From a virus: DNA of 23,877 nt. The translations under genes were made by a program, and so were the position numbers. The DNA is taken from the IMG/VR virus record IMGVR_UViG_3300049830_000167, positions 1 to 23,877 of that record; one strand, written 5' to 3'. Shown in pieces: positions 1,497 to 23,820 of the stretch (its first letter is position 1; the number at the start of each line of letters is the position of its first letter). The notes under the pieces were generated by a model. The model saw nothing but the letters and a program-made list of their open reading frames with translations. It was not told the DNA's origin and made no database searches.

Positions 1497-1972
1497 CAGA
1501 CGAGCACAGCAATACAGCGTCAAACAGCACCGGGCGAGCGGCACCCGGCAAGCCGTTTCGCAAAGGCGACCCGCGCATAAACCGCAAAGGCCGGCCGCGC
1601 GGCTTCGATGAGCTGCGCAAAATGGCGATCCGTATCGCTGGCGAGACGCTGACCAACAAGGCGACCGGCGAGCAATCAACCGTTGTCGACGCGATCCTAC
1701 GGCGCTGGATTGCATCTGACGACTGGCGCGCGTCTGAGGCATTCATGCAATATGCGTTTGGCAAGGTCCCTAACCGGGAGGAGATCAGCGGGCCTGATGG
1801 TGGCCCGATACCAACGTCGTTTGTGATCGACATTGGCGTAGACGACAACGCTAACAGCAGCGATAGCAATGGTGAACAGGGTGAGCAAAACGAAAGCGCC
1901 AATGACGCGAGTGCTGAAACACGCGGGGACGCCTCAGCAGGTCCAGTTCTGGATCAACCCGGCGAGGTTTAG
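1490..1972 (+). CDS. terS: Terminase small subunit-like protein
   Basis: The 160-residue product starts at ATG 1490. A TTG 30 nt earlier is in frame but has no ribosome site. The PGKPFRKGDPRINRKGRP motif followed by a helical segment (FDELRKMAIRIAGETL, VVDAILRRWIASDDWRASEAFMQYAFGKVP) is typical of short proteins encoded immediately before the large terminase in many prophages and annotated as TerS or DUF5681-like. The C-terminal 45 residues are acidic, Asn/Ser-rich and probably disordered. TerS binds the packaging start site and recruits the large subunit. The large subunit gene begins inside this one with a 104-bp overlap, which supports translational coupling. Assignment rests on motif and position; no structural motif proves it. 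Confidence 0.7.
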   Translation: MTTDEHSNTASNSTGRAAPGKPFRKGDPRINRKGRPRGFDELRKMAIRIAGETLTNKATGEQSTVVDAILRRWIASDDWRASEAFMQYAFGKVPNREEISGPDGGPIPTSFVIDIGVDDNANSSDSNGEQGEQNESANDASAETRGDASAGPVLDQPGEV

Positions 1973-3170
1973 GGCATTTGTCGGCGGCATCGGTAGCGGC
2001 AAGACACGCGCAGGATGCGTTGAAGTGATGAGACAACCGGCAATGAGCGTGGGGATGGTAATCGCACCAACGTATCCAATGTTGCGTGATGCCACGCAGC
2101 GCACATTGATCGGCCTTGCTAAGCGTGGTAATGTGCTCAAGGATTTCAACAAAAGCACGAACATCGCCATGCTTAACGACGGCAAAGAGATTGCCTTTCG
2201 CAGTGCTGACAATCCCGACAGCCTACGCGGGCCTAACCTTGACTGGTTCTACATTGATGAGGCCGCCATGTGTGGGCACGACGCCATGCTCATCATGTTA
2301 GGCCGGTTGCGCGGGAGCGGGAATATCCCGCGTCAAAACTTACGCGGCTGGGCGACGACCACACCGCGCGGTAAGAATTGGGTGTGGCAGATGTTCGCCA
2401 ATGGCGATCCGAGTGAGTTTGCGCTCATCCGCGCATCGACGCGCACCAACACCTATCTGCCGGCCGACTTCATCAAGAGCGTTGAAGGCTCATATAGTGA
2501 ACGTTGGCGCGCGCAAGAACTTGAAGGCGAGTTCGTCGACGATAACGGCTCGGTGTTTCGCGGCGTGCGCGAGTGCGCTACATCCGCCAAGCTCGACAAA
2601 GGCGGCGATGGGCGCACCTACATCGCTGGGCTGGACTGGGGCCGCAGCAACGACTACACCGTGCTAACGGTGTTCGACGCGCGGGATAAGCGCGAGGTGT
2701 TCAAGGACCGCTTCAACCAAATAGACTACACCGTGCAGCGCAATCGCATCCGCGCGGTTCACGAGCGCTTCGGCATTACAACGATCATCGCCGAGGCAAA
2801 CAGCATGGGTCAGCCGAATATCGAAATGCTTCTACGCGACGGCCTGCCGGTGCAATCGTTCACAACGACCAACGCCACGAAGGCGACGATTATCGAGGCG
2901 TTGGCGTTGGCGTTTGAACGGCGCGAGATCGGCATCCTAAATGACGACGTGTGCATCAATGAGTTACAGGCGTTTGAGATGGAGCGCATGACGAGCGGCA
3001 TGATGCGCTACGGCGCGCCGAGTGGTATGCATGATGACACGGTGATGAGTATGGCGCTCGCGTGGTATGGCGTCGAAGGGCGAGCGACGCCGAGTTGGGT
3101 GAGGTTCGCAAAAAAGCAAATGGAATCCATGGACGCGACAAAGGTGAACGATATGGCAGAGGTGGCATGA
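1869..3170 (+). CDS. terL: Terminase large subunit (packaging ATPase-nuclease)
   Basis: The 433-residue motor protein shows all expected motifs. Walker A is GGIGSGKT (39-46), Walker B is LDWFYIDEA (D130, E131) and the coupling motif is TTTP (163-166). The C-terminal RNase H-like nuclease has acidic residues D256 (AGLDWGRSND), E309 (IIAEAN) and the pair D389-D390 (MHDDTVMSMA). It cuts concatemeric DNA and drives it into the prohead through the portal. ATG 1869 is used here. ATG 1902 is an alternative that would remove 11 non-conserved residues, and neither has a clear ribosome site. The stop is 1 nt before the portal start. The length is on the short side for the family, but the protein is complete. 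Confidence 0.95.
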   Translation: MVNRVSKTKAPMTRVLKHAGTPQQVQFWINPARFRAFVGGIGSGKTRAGCVEVMRQPAMSVGMVIAPTYPMLRDATQRTLIGLAKRGNVLKDFNKSTNIAMLNDGKEIAFRSADNPDSLRGPNLDWFYIDEAAMCGHDAMLIMLGRLRGSGNIPRQNLRGWATTTPRGKNWVWQMFANGDPSEFALIRASTRTNTYLPADFIKSVEGSYSERWRAQELEGEFVDDNGSVFRGVRECATSAKLDKGGDGRTYIAGLDWGRSNDYTVLTVFDARDKREVFKDRFNQIDYTVQRNRIRAVHERFGITTIIAEANSMGQPNIEMLLRDGLPVQSFTTTNATKATIIEALALAFERREIGILNDDVCINELQAFEMERMTSGMMRYGAPSGMHDDTVMSMALAWYGVEGRATPSWVRFAKKQMESMDATKVNDMAEVA

Positions 3171-3171
3171 T

Positions 3172-4950
3172 ATGACAGACAACACATTAACGACAACCAG
3201 CGGCGAACCTAACACCTCGCTCACGCCAAGCCAGGCCATGGCACAGGCTTACGCCGGGACCTGGGGCGCAAATGGTCTATTTGTCCCTGGCACACCGATG
3301 CAGCCGATCGTCGCCGACGATGAGAAGCCGCGCGTATTCGATTACCCGATCGGTATTAACCTCTATCTCACACCGCGCACCGGCTATGGATTACTGCCAT
3401 TTAGTATGTTGCGCAATTTCGCCAACTCGTGTGACGCGGTGCGCATCGTGATCGAGGCCATCAAGCGCGAGATCCGCGCCATGGAATGGGACATCATCCT
3501 AGATGAGAATAGCGACGATGATGATACCGATTACACCGACGAGATCACACGACTGCGCGAGTTCTGGAAGACACCAGATGGCGCGACTGAGTTTGATGCT
3601 TGGTGCAATTCCGTGCTAGACGATCTGCTGGTCGTTGACGCAGTATCGCTATGGACCGACGTTGATGGCACATCAACCATCGTCGGTGTTGAGCAGATTG
3701 ATGGTACGACGATTCGACCGCTGCTTGATCAGCGCGGCCGCACACCACGCGCACCAATTCCGGCCTATATGCAAGCCGTGAAAGGGATGAACTGGCAATG
3801 GTTTAGCGCCGATCGGTTGCTCTACCGGCCATTTAACACGTCGGCAGGCTCGCCATATGGCATGTCGCCGATTGAGTTTTTGCTCTTGCGCATCAACGAA
3901 ACACTGCGCCGACAGTATGCGCAGACGACCTACTGGGACACGACCAACATACCCGAGGCATTTGCGTTTTTACCGGCTGAGTGGTCACCGGATCAAATCG
4001 AAGGCTTTCAAACCTACATCGACAACATGCTGGCCGGTAACGTCGGCAAACTGCGCCGGTTAAAGTTTTTGCCATCGCCAGGCAGCGGCACACCGGTGCA
4101 CGAGTTCAGGCGGCCTGATGCGCAGCAAAGCATCATCTATGACGAATGGATGATGCGCATGACTTGCTGGGCGTTCGGCTTCCTGCCGAGTGAGCTTGGC
4201 CTGATGGCCGGGCGTGGCTTAGGCGGGAAGGGGTTCAGCGAAGGTCAAGAGAATTCATTGTTTCGATTTGGCATCGGGCCGCTTGTGCAGTATCTGCAGA
4301 ATCTGTTCAGCGGCATCGTCAAGCGCCAAACGAAGGCGCCTTTGGTGTGGCGCTTCAAAAATGTCGGGCCTGAAGAGGACAAGAAGGCCGAGTTTGATTT
4401 GGATGACGCGCGTTTGCGCAGTGGCGTGGTCGATATCAATGTGCTCCGTGCCAAGGCTGGTCAGGAGCTTGTGCCAAATGCCAAACCGTTCATCGTCATC
4501 GGCACGCAAGCCATATTGCTGCAAGACCTGTTCGCCGACAAACCTGCGCCGATTGCGCTACCGACATTACCGGCTGGCAGTGGTCCGCAGGATGCAATAC
4601 CGCCTACGCTTGGCGCGCCTGGCCAGACACAAGCGCCTACACCTACGGCTGCGCCCAGCGCACCCGCCGACAAACCTGCCGCAAAAGCCGATCATGCGCA
4701 GCTCGCGCTTGCACTCGACCACTGGCGCGAGAAGGCTCGGCGCAGGCTCGGCGATGGCAAGGCGCCTGACTGCGAGCCGCCAGCGTTGTCGAAGAGCATC
4801 ATCCCGGAGCCGTTGCAGTCGGCTATCCGTTCTGCGCTCGTTGGCGCGAAGACCGCGACGGACATCATCCACGTATTTAACCTGGCGAGTAACCCGGTCC
4901 CGTCGAGTCGCACGATAGCCCCTCGGAGTGCCACCTTCCCAAAAGCCTAG
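3172..4950 (+). CDS. Portal protein (zero-frame product, 592 aa)
   Basis: The dodecameric portal forms the DNA channel at one capsid vertex. The product has a conserved portal core (roughly 70-440), including NSCDAVRIVIEAIKREIRAM, a clip/stem region and the helical AQTTYWDTTNIPEAF segment. A Pro/Ala-rich linker (about 490-520) follows, then a helical tail (ALDHWREKARRRLGDGK ... SIIPEPLQSAIRSAL) typical of portals that lie next to or are fused with MuF domains. The ATG lies 1 nt after the terL stop, with AGAGGTGG as ribosome site. The end is remarkable: the last codons read TTC CCA AAA GCC TAG, so the -1 slippery heptamer CCCAAAA lies two codons before the stop. A portal-MuF fusion of 858 residues is therefore likely as a second product. 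Confidence 0.92.
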   Translation: MTDNTLTTTSGEPNTSLTPSQAMAQAYAGTWGANGLFVPGTPMQPIVADDEKPRVFDYPIGINLYLTPRTGYGLLPFSMLRNFANSCDAVRIVIEAIKREIRAMEWDIILDENSDDDDTDYTDEITRLREFWKTPDGATEFDAWCNSVLDDLLVVDAVSLWTDVDGTSTIVGVEQIDGTTIRPLLDQRGRTPRAPIPAYMQAVKGMNWQWFSADRLLYRPFNTSAGSPYGMSPIEFLLLRINETLRRQYAQTTYWDTTNIPEAFAFLPAEWSPDQIEGFQTYIDNMLAGNVGKLRRLKFLPSPGSGTPVHEFRRPDAQQSIIYDEWMMRMTCWAFGFLPSELGLMAGRGLGGKGFSEGQENSLFRFGIGPLVQYLQNLFSGIVKRQTKAPLVWRFKNVGPEEDKKAEFDLDDARLRSGVVDINVLRAKAGQELVPNAKPFIVIGTQAILLQDLFADKPAPIALPTLPAGSGPQDAIPPTLGAPGQTQAPTPTAAPSAPADKPAAKADHAQLALALDHWREKARRRLGDGKAPDCEPPALSKSIIPEPLQSAIRSALVGAKTATDIIHVFNLASNPVPSSRTIAPRSATFPKA

Positions 4951-5003
4951 AGGCGCGCAAATCGCTGGCGAAGACTGGCGAAACACAACAGCCGACGCGC
5001 GCC
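4938..5003 (+). promoter_or_regulatory. Candidate -1 programmed ribosomal frameshift signal
   Basis: CCCAAAA at 4938-4944 has the X-XXY-YYZ form in the portal frame (C CCA AAA), so both tRNAs can re-pair after slipping back one base. Seven nucleotides downstream an all-GC arm, GGCGCGC (4952-4958), is perfectly complementary to GCGCGCC (4997-5003) across a 38-nt loop. This spacing is the usual one for a stimulatory structure. The -1 frame then stays open to the MuF stop at 5747. Heptamer, phase, spacing and frame are all seen directly; frameshift activity is inferred. Confidence 0.65.
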
Positions 5004-5747
5004 CGGCAAGACATTGAAGATGAGTTAGCCGATTGGTTCGAGACGCAGTTTGGCACGTTGCTTGACGACCTGCCAGATATGGGAGATGGCGTCATCGGCG
5101 AGGTAAACGCTACTGCACTGCAAGATCCGGTGAATCCGTTCTGGTCTACATTCACGCGCGTGCTCAGCGCGGTTGCGCCACTACTCGTGTCGGCTGCACA
5201 AAGCGCTGTTGCCGAAACGCAAGGCGACACGATGTTTGCGGCGCCTGCTGCCGACGTGAGCGTGAGCGCCGGCGTGTCGTGGGACCTGGTGAATCAGTCT
5301 GCCGCCAGCTGGGCTGATGCACGCGCCGGCGCGCTGGTGACGGAGCTGGCCGACGAAACTCGAGATGCCATCGCGAGAGCCATCGCCTCATGGATGCGCG
5401 ACGGCAGGCCGCTAGGTGAGTTGTCAAAAGCCATCGATGCCATCATCGATAATCCAGTGCGCGCGCGACTCATCGCGGCGACTGAGGTCACAACGGCATT
5501 TGCTAAAGGTAATAGCGCTGCGTGGCAAGCCGCTGGGCTATGGGGCCGCATGTGGCAGATCGTGCAAGACGGCCATGTGTGCCGGATATGCGAACCGTTG
5601 CACGACCAGGTGCAGCCGTTTGGCTTACCATTCATTCACCCGGAGACCGGAGACGAGATCGACGATCCTGGCGTGGATAGTCATCCGCGCTGTCGGTGTT
5701 ATCTACTGCCGGTAGTCAGGATGCCTAGCGATTGGCAAGGAGCATGA
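4944..5747 (+). CDS. MuF-like head morphogenesis domain, entered by -1 frameshift from portal
   Basis: The C-terminal part matches the phage head morphogenesis (Mu gpF-like) family. It has the ATEVTTAFAKGNSAAW helix, then a Cys/His segment with CRIC, DQVQPFGL and HPRCRCYLLPV. Such proteins are minor capsid components that act with the portal. The frame is open from 4893 but has no ATG or GTG before the conserved region. The first possible start is TTG 5058 with no ribosome site, and coding-like sequence (ARQDIEDELADWFETQFG) lies upstream of it. Independent initiation therefore looks poor, and entry by frameshift from the portal gene explains the layout. If a simple caller is used, the gene will appear as 5058-5747 (229 aa). 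A sequencing indel is the alternative. The stop is followed after 1 nt by the next ATG. Confidence 0.82.
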   Translation, partial: SLEARKSLAKTGETQQPTRARQDIEDELADWFETQFGTLLDDLPDMGDGVIGEVNATALQDPVNPFWSTFTRVLSAVAPLLVSAAQSAVAETQGDTMFAAPAADVSVSAGVSWDLVNQSAASWADARAGALVTELADETRDAIARAIASWMRDGRPLGELSKAIDAIIDNPVRARLIAATEVTTAFAKGNSAAWQAAGLWGRMWQIVQDGHVCRICEPLHDQVQPFGLPFIHPETGDEIDDPGVDSHPRCRCYLLPVVRMPSDWQGA

Positions 5748-17531: not shown

Positions 17532-19052
17532 ATGTCAGAATCAAGTTTTGGCTGGACAACCAGCAATGTCGGCGATGGCCCGAGCGGCGGTTACTCATCA
17601 GCCACATACACCACGTTTCAGCGCGAGATGTTTACTACCAACCCAGCGGCTGAGAGTGTGTTGTACGGCATTGGTGGCTCGCTCGGCGTGACTGGCGCAT
17701 CGTCACCGGTGAGTGTCGCGAGCGGTGACGCGATCGTGTATGGATATCCGTATCGCAGTGATGCGGCTACAAGCGTGACAATACCAACACCGACGTCGGC
17801 TACGCGCATTGACCGCATCGTGCTACGTGCGGTGTGGAGCACGCAGACGGTTCGCATAACGCGCATCGCAGGCACCGAAGGCGGCGGTACGCCGGCCCTC
17901 ACGCAGACGGCCAACACCACATGGGATGTGCCACTTGCAAATGTGAGCATCACAACCGGTGGCGTTATCACCGTGAGCGATCAGCGGACGTTTGTGAAAG
18001 ATCCTGGCGCGTATGGCTGGTTCACACAGGCGCTGACGGTTGCTGGCAACTTTACGGCTGTATCGTTGCTCACGAACAACTCAGGCGCAGCAAATGACGT
18101 AGTGGCAACCTACCTGAATGGCAGTATGGGTTCAGATGCGACTCTGGGTTCACTGCTAATGTTGATACGCGGAATTCCATCTGCTACCGGTGCATCGCGC
18201 CAAGGCCATATTGGCTTTGGCGACAACTCTGGCATGCGCGACTTGTATCTAAACAGTAACGGCGCTGGCGCATACGGCAATGTGATCGTAGGTGCCAACT
18301 TGACATCGCTCGCCAACATTACCGCAGCGGCGCTCAAAATCGATTCCACCGCGTATCTGGCGTTTAGCGGCGCTAACCCGATTCTCAACTTTGACGGCAA
18401 TGACTTTGTTCTCTACAACCGCACGACAAATATCTACTCTTTTTACATCGGCGGCACCGTCGTCGCGACTCTCGATTCAGCTGGTACGTTCACGCCAACA
18501 GCTATCGGCGCAGGCGTGGTGAGCACGGCCGCTCTTGCGGCGCAAGCGGTGACAACGGCCAAACTTGCCGCTAATGCGGTGGGTGCGGCCCAGCTCGCCG
18601 CTAATGCGGTGGGTGCGGCCCAGCTCGCCGCTAACGCAGTCGGCGCGACGCAGTTGGCTAACGGCGCAGTTGGCACCACACAGTTAGCCGCTAATGCCGT
18701 TGACGATACTATCGCGGGAAACCGCATCCCGCAGGTCTATCGCCGACAGGGGAACGACGCGACAAACTGGGCCGTTCCGGGGACGACAAACTACACACCC
18801 GGCCTAGTACGCATTCAGGCAGGCAACGCTACCCTAACATTTGTCTCTACGACTCAGGTAGGCATTAGCATAACGTTCCCCGTGGCCTTTAGTTCGAGCC
18901 CGCTGGTTTTTGTGTCTGCAAATAACGGCGCGGGTCCGTTTTATGCCGTTTGGGGTAATGCCACTTCCACGGTAGTTGGGATCACATGCTATTCGCCCAG
19001 CACGTTCACGGGTGGCGTAAATGTTTCGTGGTTCGCAATTGGGCCACAATAA
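17532..19052 (+). CDS. Tail fibre / receptor-binding protein with decapeptide repeats
   Basis: The 506-residue product has a GAGGAG ribosome site 9 nt before the ATG. The N-terminal 160 residues form a baseplate-attachment-like beta domain (TRIDRIVLRAVWSTQTVRITR, TWDVPLANVSI, ITVSDQRTFVKDPGA). The middle, about 170-330, is a beta-rich shaft. Residues about 346-395 consist of five decapeptides of the form LAANAVGAAQ, expected to make a trimeric stalk. The C-terminal domain, from about 410 (LTFVSTTQVGISITFPVAFS, PLVFVSANNGAG, VNVSWFAIGPQ), resembles small H-type-lectin-like or receptor-binding tips. It probably decides host recognition. The stop is immediately followed by the next ATG. Confidence 0.75.
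   Translation: MSESSFGWTTSNVGDGPSGGYSSATYTTFQREMFTTNPAAESVLYGIGGSLGVTGASSPVSVASGDAIVYGYPYRSDAATSVTIPTPTSATRIDRIVLRAVWSTQTVRITRIAGTEGGGTPALTQTANTTWDVPLANVSITTGGVITVSDQRTFVKDPGAYGWFTQALTVAGNFTAVSLLTNNSGAANDVVATYLNGSMGSDATLGSLLMLIRGIPSATGASRQGHIGFGDNSGMRDLYLNSNGAGAYGNVIVGANLTSLANITAAALKIDSTAYLAFSGANPILNFDGNDFVLYNRTTNIYSFYIGGTVVATLDSAGTFTPTAIGAGVVSTAALAAQAVTTAKLAANAVGAAQLAANAVGAAQLAANAVGATQLANGAVGTTQLAANAVDDTIAGNRIPQVYRRQGNDATNWAVPGTTNYTPGLVRIQAGNATLTFVSTTQVGISITFPVAFSSSPLVFVSANNGAGPFYAVWGNATSTVVGITCYSPSTFTGGVNVSWFAIGPQ
18567..18626 (+). repeat. Two perfect 30-bp tandem units in the fibre gene
   Basis: The 30-bp unit 18567-18596 is repeated without change at 18597-18626 and followed by diverged units at 18627 onward. 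Each encodes one decapeptide of the stalk. The perfect DNA identity points to recent slippage or recombination and a way to change stalk length by ten residues at a time. Confidence 0.9.
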
Positions 19053-21459: not shown

Positions 21460-21822
21460 TTATTTGTTTGCGATCGCCAACAGTATATCCGCATGGCATG
21501 GTTGATCCAGCGCGCACCAGCACGCCAGATCGTGGCCGCGCAACTCGCGTTTGACATCATCAATGCTGATGCCGAGCTGGCCGCGTAGTAGTTTGGTGCG
21601 AAACGCGGCTACGGCTTCGGCTGCATCGATGATCTCGCGATTGAGCACAATTGCCGCAAACTCAATATCGCCGCGTTTTTTGCGCAAATTGCCTTGCACG
21701 AGATGGCTTCCAACACGAAACGGGTTACCCCACTTCGACGGCCGCCCGACGCATATCGCGCCTTCAGGCTTGCGCCAGCCGCGTGAGCGCTTGAGCTGAA
21801 TTCGCTTCGGTGTCGTGCTCAT
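21460..21822 (-). CDS. DUF4326 domain protein
   Basis: The 120-residue product matches DUF4326. It has an N-terminal RIQLKRSRGWRKPEGAICVG, then RPSKWGNPF (about 27-35), a helical middle (FAAIVLNREIIDAAEAVAAF) and the C-terminal LRGHDLACWC with a PCHADILLAIAN ending. The conserved Cys-Trp-Cys and Cys-His pairs probably bind metal or build the active site. DUF4326 is common in phages, but its activity is not established to my knowledge. The ATG overlaps the preceding stop (ATGA), and AGGAGGG lies inside the end of that gene. Confidence 0.85.
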   Translation of the reverse strand: MSTTPKRIQLKRSRGWRKPEGAICVGRPSKWGNPFRVGSHLVQGNLRKKRGDIEFAAIVLNREIIDAAEAVAAFRTKLLRGQLGISIDDVKRELRGHDLACWCALDQPCHADILLAIANK

Positions 21823-23595: not shown

Positions 23596-23820
23596 TCAGC
23601 ACCTTTGCGCGTTTTGTCGATCGGGGCCGGCGCCGTTGCCGTAGCCGTAGCCGTCGCCGGAGCCGTTGCCGTAGCCGTCGCCGGAGCCGTAGCCGTCGCC
23701 GTCGCCGTAGCCGTCGCCGTAGCCGTAGCCGTAGCCGTAGCCGTAGCCGTAGCCGTAGCCGTAGCCGTAGCCGTCGCCGGAGCCGTAGCCGTAGCCGTCA
23801 ACTAGAAGAATTTTGTCCAT
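23596..23820 (-). CDS. Gly-Tyr dipeptide-repeat protein
   Basis: The product is 74 residues: an N-terminal MDKILLVD, then 29 consecutive Gly-X dipeptides (X = Tyr, Asp, Ser or Asn, plus one Ala and one Pro at the end; nine GY in a row at the longest), then DRQNAQRC. Low-complexity small proteins of this style occur in several phages without known function. A Gly-Tyr-rich chain is expected to be disordered and self-associating. The ribosome site is weak, and the ATG overlaps the end of a probable upstream gene. All three frames across the repeat are open. This one is chosen because it has a compact start and is followed by a coupled gene. Confidence 0.6.
   Translation of the reverse strand: MDKILLVDGYGYGSGDGYGYGYGYGYGYGYGYGYGDGYGDGDGYGSGDGYGNGSGDGYGYGNGAGPDRQNAQRC
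23623..23796 (-). repeat. Hexanucleotide tandem repeat (29 units of GGCNNC type)
   Basis: Twenty-nine 6-bp units lie in succession, mostly GGCTAC on the reverse strand (GTAGCC on the forward). Nine perfect units are uninterrupted at 23719-23772. Unit gain or loss keeps the frame, so it changes protein length by GY pairs rather than switching the gene off. Confidence 0.95.

Follow-up and report, generated by a model that had tools for sequence, protein, structure and literature searches.

Probable -1 ribosomal frameshifting at the portal-MuF junction of a viral genome and its relatives

The portal gene of the virus described here probably encodes two products, the portal protein alone and a portal-MuF fusion, which are made by -1 programmed frameshifting at a CCCAAAA heptamer close to the portal stop codon; there are no protein, reporter or read data behind this reading. 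The sequence, the phase of the heptamer, its conservation, its enrichment over synonymous shuffles, the result with the control group and the recurrence of the layout have been shown. The slippage itself, its efficiency, the incorporation of the products into the ring and the copy number of MuF are all inferred.

In the proposed mechanism, ribosomes translating the portal gene would arrive at C_CCA_AAA (positions 4938-4944), where most of them would stay in frame and terminate at the TAG at 4948 to yield portal alone (592 aa). A fraction would slip back by one base, with the two tRNAs re-pairing on CCC AAA, and a stem starting 7 nt downstream would help the slip. The slipped ribosomes would translate the -1 frame through MuF to 5747 and yield a portal-MuF protein of 858 aa. 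The portal ring, through which the DNA enters the capsid, may then be mosaic, some subunits carrying MuF and others lacking it, and the ratio would be set by the slip efficiency. In the close relatives the frames would be swapped (frame 0 leading to the fusion, the -1 frame to portal alone) and the two products would be the same.

Portal and MuF reading frames of the window

The window, i.e. the whole stretch of DNA that was analysed, is the 23,877-bp IMG/VR virus record IMGVR_UViG_3300049830_000167, which carries a terminase gene (1869-3170) as well as further head and tail genes. The portal gene occupies 3172-4950 of the plus strand (stop codon TAG at 4948-4950), and its 592-aa frame 0 product is 50-64% identical to the portals of the close relatives. 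It matched positions 33-479 of PHROG 2662 (E 8e-35), a portal-MuF single-chain family with 717 profile positions; the match to Pfam Phage_portal (E 5e-4) was under Pfam's cut-off. A helical domain located 5' of the junction (4720-4881, plus strand, HWREKARRRLGDGK...DIIHVFN in the portal frame) could be aligned across all close relatives and the Arthrobacter phages, and by direct reading this segment is protein-like in the portal frame only.

MuF is encoded in the -1 frame, which is open between 4893 and 5747 of the plus strand (TAA upstream at 4890, TGA at 5745-5747). The part translated after the slip would be 4944-5744, 267 codons, and the predicted portal-MuF fusion would be 858 aa long. 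The frame matched the C-terminal half of PHROG 2662 (E 1.4e-24, positions 479-716 of 717) and scored slightly under the Pfam cut-off for PF04233 (E 1.1e-5, 26.6 bits vs 29.6). Both halves of the family, the N-terminal portal and the C-terminal MuF, are therefore present in the window; the criterion that fails is that of a single uninterrupted frame, MuF being in the -1 frame. The window MuF protein alone, when used as query, retrieved no relatives, and neither did an initial scan of genome contigs.

The heptamer at 4938-4944 (plus strand) reads C_CCA_AAA in the portal frame and is followed by GCC and the TAG at 4948. It meets the X_XXY_YYZ criterion of -1 programmed ribosomal frameshifting, in phase with the upstream frame, and no other strict slippery heptamer lies in phase anywhere in the 592 codons of the portal ORF. 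With the window alone, synonymous shuffling gave a P of ~0.11 for a heptamer in the last 30 portal codons; chance cannot be dismissed on this basis, and the significance of the site rests on the relatives. A 7-nt spacer (4945-4951) separates the heptamer from a predicted stimulatory stem with an inner hairpin (4952-5003, plus strand), in which 4952-4958 (GGCGCGC) pair with 4997-5003 (GCGCGCC). This stem is part of the predicted fold (MFE -24.5 kcal/mol, z -1.40), and 18 of 200 shuffled sequences folded equally well. For a stimulatory structure a distance of about 5-9 nt is expected. On its own, the window stem is not exceptional and is weak evidence. Weak evidence is also provided by a Shine-Dalgarno-like GGAG at 4925-4928 (plus strand; anti-SD duplex -6.1 kcal/mol), which is a possible stimulator; an upstream Shine-Dalgarno sequence as a general stimulator was rejected because it is not conserved in the relatives. 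The proposed junction coincides exactly with a trypsin cleavage point (between TFPK and SLEAR), thus detection of the junction peptide requires another protease.

A rival explanation is that ribosomes start MuF independently of the portal, or re-initiate by coupling, at the TTG at 5058 or at a non-canonical codon such as the CTG at 4965 or the ATT at 5013. It is supported by four relatives (L013, L016, L211 and L215) that have separate MuF genes with an overlapping ATG. Against it, direct reading of the -1 frame (4893-5747) revealed no ATG, GTG or TTG upstream of the TTG at 5058, and this TTG has no Shine-Dalgarno sequence (later in-frame starts are ATG 5079 and GTG 5130); no start codon in the vicinity is served by a ribosome site. 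Moreover, a start at 5058 would drop sequence that is kept in relatives (QPTRARQDIEDEL), and the conserved heptamers and stems would be left unexplained. Separate initiation is thus very improbable.

A first-pass annotation, made from the sequence alone, had claimed a CCCAAAA in the -1 phase near the portal TAG, a 7-bp GC stem 7 nt past it and an open, MuF-like -1 frame of 267 codons, in which there is no ATG or GTG upstream and the TTG at 5058 lacks a ribosome site. It had also stated that single-chain portal-MuF fusions are known. All these claims held, the first by direct reading of coordinates and phase and the last through PHROG 2662, with the qualifications given above for the shuffled stem and for the PF04233 score.

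The junction heptamer in close relatives and Arthrobacter phages

The close relatives found in IMG/VR were L017, L097 (with the near copy L098), L099 (with the near copy L100), L101, L102, L103 and L104. In all seven distinct relatives portal and MuF form one unbroken ORF. In the six that have a junction heptamer, it lies 51-60 residues past a WREK motif (72 residues in the window). Four of them (L097, L099, L102 and L103) have C_CCA_AAA at the junction, in the phase and place observed in the window. CCCAAAA is found there also in the cultured Arthrobacter phages Sonali (L007) and Mufasa8 (L009), which are ~26% identical; their genes, of 1000 codons, contain no other strict heptamer. Other heptamers occupy the junction in L017 (C_CCT_TTT and T_TTT_TTA) and in L104 (A_AAA_AAA and A_AAA_AAG), and L101 was the sole sequence among the ten that had no strict heptamer. 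Taken together, an in-phase heptamer occurs in nine of the ten sequences (the window, six close relatives, Sonali and Mufasa8) inside one stretch of 60 alignment columns at the junction, whereas in 2000 synonymous shuffles no 60-column stretch anywhere in the gene contained more than six. The criterion that a frameshift site be conserved beyond protein constraint is thus met. The residues encoded by the junction heptamers vary (PK, PFL or KKK), which shows that amino acid conservation is not the explanation; a conserved Pro-Lys motif was rejected, as L017 and L104 have other residues.

The sequences 3' of CCCAAAA were predicted to fold more stably than dinucleotide shuffles in L099 (z -5.7), L102 (z -4.1), L103 (z -3.0) and L097 (z -2.6), with long stems that begin about 6-7 nt past the heptamer. 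In the consensus stem, both partners of 4 of the 12 pairs differed in one or more of the four sequences, the alignment being approximate. A short CCCUCC/GGAGGG hairpin is present downstream in Sonali and Mufasa8, whose folding energies as a whole are unremarkable (z -0.6 and -1.3). No stem was found in L017 (z 0.6), in which a GGAGG is present upstream. The L102 fusion was modelled with AlphaFold at low overall quality (mean pLDDT 51, pTM 0.37), and only the local pattern of the model was used: the slip site (residues 574-575) was predicted to lie in a low-confidence, linker-like stretch (570-586) between two helical regions.

In Sonali and Mufasa8 (L007:2144-5128, L009:2134-5133) portal and MuF are separated by a NUDIX-like domain, and one Mufasa8 record is annotated as a MutT/NUDIX hydrolase.

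These results support, by comparative evidence, the claim of the first-pass annotation that -1 recoding occurs at the junction, and widen it to the relatives. The conservation test suggested there for heptamer and stem was positive in a form that had not been foreseen: the relatives have a single frame, and most of them keep an in-phase heptamer, usually with a stem.

Single-frame fusions in all seven relatives would, taken alone, suggest a one-base deletion in the window. According to this rival explanation, 1 nt was lost near the junction in assembly or sequencing, the real gene is a frame 0 fusion and the slip makes portal alone; recoding would still operate and only the frame carrying MuF would change. 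It is also in favour of this explanation that no second, near-identical contig was found to confirm the window, so an indel is not excluded. Since the heptamer has the same register relative to the portal frame that is seen in the relatives, the shift would be expected between it and the conserved AKTGETQQPTRARQDIED, at about 4945-4965. This region has no run of more than three bases (the junction sequence at stake is CCCAAAAGCCTAGAGGCGCGC), and the window layout recurs in 12 other heptamer-bearing loci. We consider the indel unlikely. A simple assembly error as the whole explanation was rejected on account of the heptamers in the relatives and the recurrence of the layout.

Wider sets of portal-MuF loci and the two layouts

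Heptamers in the linker were counted in three wider sets of fused loci. In the first viral set they were present in 12 of 21 loci (shuffle mean 5.9, maximum 12 in 300 runs), a marginal enrichment that is at most suggestive. The other two sets were scored under one and the same rule. Heptamers were found in 18 of 29 fused loci from bacterial genomes (shuffle mean 6, maximum 11 in 1000 runs) and in 19 of 26 fused loci of a further viral set (shuffle mean 6.5, maximum 12 in 500 runs). The bacterial loci came from isolates of Methylobacterium, Herbaspirillum, Acinetobacter, Alkanindiges, Limnobacter, Paludibacterium, Chromobacterium and Trinickia, and also from MAGs assigned to Chlorobiota, Planctomycetota and Acidobacteriota. 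No excess was detected in the controls, i.e. portals with no MuF detected in frame (9/53, 6/38 and 4/21 vs 7.4, 5.4 and 2.6 expected). Since the MuF model derives from the discovery group, divergent MuF may be hidden among these 'no MuF' controls. Relatedness among the loci is not accounted for in the shuffles; near copies were taken out manually in the earlier sets, and a 90% identity threshold was used for the last one.

When all heptamers of the wider sets were considered, the phase test was uninformative because A-runs match in several phases. It became informative once limited to two-block heptamers: the -1 phase was favoured 27:12:7 in fused linkers, as compared to 18:20:12 in controls (sets pooled through the bacterial-genome set, without the further viral set).

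In portals L002, L003 and L004, for which no MuF was detected, an extra C-terminal ParB-type-like stretch (VADGNHRTASIEDAG) was noticed by eye only.

These counts bear on two further rival explanations. The first is that the heptamers reflect chance or protein-level conservation in a Pro/Lys-rich linker, without recoding. It can be said in its favour that the linkers are rich in P and K, that a strict heptamer is absent in 9/21, 11/29 and 7/26 fused loci of the three sets and that phases are poorly separated for A-runs. Against it, protein-preserving synonymous shuffles do not reproduce the counts, the controls show no excess, the different heptamers encode different residues and the window layout recurs; the explanation retains very little credibility. 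The second is that RNA polymerase slippage on A-runs, rather than ribosomal slippage, gives the two products. Long A-runs are common in the wider family, where phase is a weak control (runs of at least eight A in 12 of 59 fused loci vs 3 of 94 controls). Polymerase slippage is possible at such runs. However, CCCAAAA, CCCTTTT and CCCTTTC contain no long homopolymer and the window is not readily explained in this way; as the source of the two products, polymerase slippage is considered very improbable. For these three heptamers ribosomal -1 slippage is the simplest account. In measurements in E. coli CCCAAAA and CCCTTTT shifted above 0.10% without stimulators, and CCCTTTC is listed as a high-level shifter (PMC4066793).

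The loci show two layouts. In the fused relatives frame 0 encodes the fusion, and a -1 slip would meet an early stop after a median of 12 codons; in L044, L061, L081 and L105 the stop would be immediate, as CCCTTTTGA becomes CCC TTT TGA. The window has the opposite layout, in which frame 0 encodes portal alone and the slip would yield portal-MuF. Because the register of the heptamer relative to the portal frame is preserved, the frames were probably exchanged just 3' of the heptamer. MuF lies in the -1 frame in 17 loci, and in 13 of them the overlap contains a heptamer (the window, L054, L165, L169, L170, L173, L188, L197, L218, L220, L227, L243 and L244). Seven of these 13 lack any start codon as far as 90 nt 3' of the portal stop, and in L169, L170 and L218 a TTG or GTG overlaps this stop. 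The four loci without heptamer are L211 and L215 (ATG over the portal stop), L166 (TTG there) and L029. The Pfam cut-off for MuF (PF04233) was passed by the -1 frames of L054, L165, L169 and L170, and also by L099 and L102. On a tree of 63 portals, on which six such loci could be placed, the window layout required four changes or more, each of them imposed by branches with good support. The layout of the window, with the heptamer, thus recurs in 12 other loci and arose at least four times independently.

Some individual loci deserve mention. L029:2615-3361 encodes a -1-frame MuF that lacks both a strict heptamer and a good start codon, and its expression is unexplained. In L173 (5329-5643) the -1 frame is only 90 codons long and the remainder of MuF lies in a different frame, which is a second break; L243, with a portal of the same length as L173, is unbroken. 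In the MuF protein of L013 (4624-6336), and also in that of L015 (3724-5478), there is a splicing domain of the intein type (PF14890, E 7.5e-8, narrowly below the cut-off).

Comparison with known systems

Single-chain portal-MuF fusions (PHROG 2662; gp3 of Sonali) have the two domains of the window in the same order, and such fusions have been described in Microbacterium phage clusters EA3/EA5/EA8/EB (PMC7302621). They are annotated as one product, whereas the window encodes the two domains in separate frames, and the relevant passages on the known fusions do not mention recoding. In SPP1 a MuF-type protein, gp7, is bound to the portal gp6, but it is encoded by a separate gene. Recoding in the structural module is known from the tail assembly chaperones G/GT of lambda, HK97 and SPP1, where a -1 heptamer at the gene end gives a fixed short/long ratio (PMC6316719); the position of the heptamer is similar, but the genes are others and the proteins unrelated. 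Likewise, the -1 frameshifts in the major capsid genes of phages T7/T3 and Lactobacillus phage A2 (PMC5009743) produce two virion proteins per gene, in the present case portal and an internal MuF domain instead. In dnaX a -1 slip truncates the product (tau/gamma) soon after the site. The fused relatives would resemble dnaX in this respect; in the window, in contrast, the slip would lengthen the product, and the proteins are unrelated.

No report of portal recoding was found in the open-access literature searched (supplementary tables excluded), and portal is not mentioned in the PRFect paper, the GeneTack paper or the relevant part of the 2016 recoding review. Within this literature the portal-MuF site may therefore have gone unrecognised. 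A bolder reading, which we consider probable, is that a frameshift site at the portal-MuF junction is widespread in tailed phages and prophages of several bacterial phyla, that portal rings contain MuF-bearing and MuF-less subunits in set proportions, and that MuF has switched repeatedly between frame 0 and frame -1 because both frames are always expressed. How a few copies of an internal protein attach to a symmetric ring is an open question, to which recoding at the junction would, if true, be a simple answer. The suggestion of the first-pass annotation that recoding fixes few copies of MuF per portal ring is plausible only; it is inferred, without data on efficiency or stoichiometry. It would also follow that there are two forms of many portals for which the annotation gives a single long product, and that a difference in frame between portal and MuF is not necessarily a frameshift error. 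Two cultured Arthrobacter phages and many prophages of isolates offer experimental access.

Apart from the junction, some other features of the window were noted. A Radical SAM protein gene (PF04055; 393-1283) adjoins the packaging genes on the opposite strand, and a DUF4326 protein (PF14216, E 9e-22) is encoded on the minus strand past the tail genes (21460-21822). A 30-bp tandem repeat (three copies, 18546-18634) is located inside the ORF 17532-19052, and a 6-bp repeat, GCCGTA (27.8 copies, 23632-23798), lies within a minus-strand ORF.
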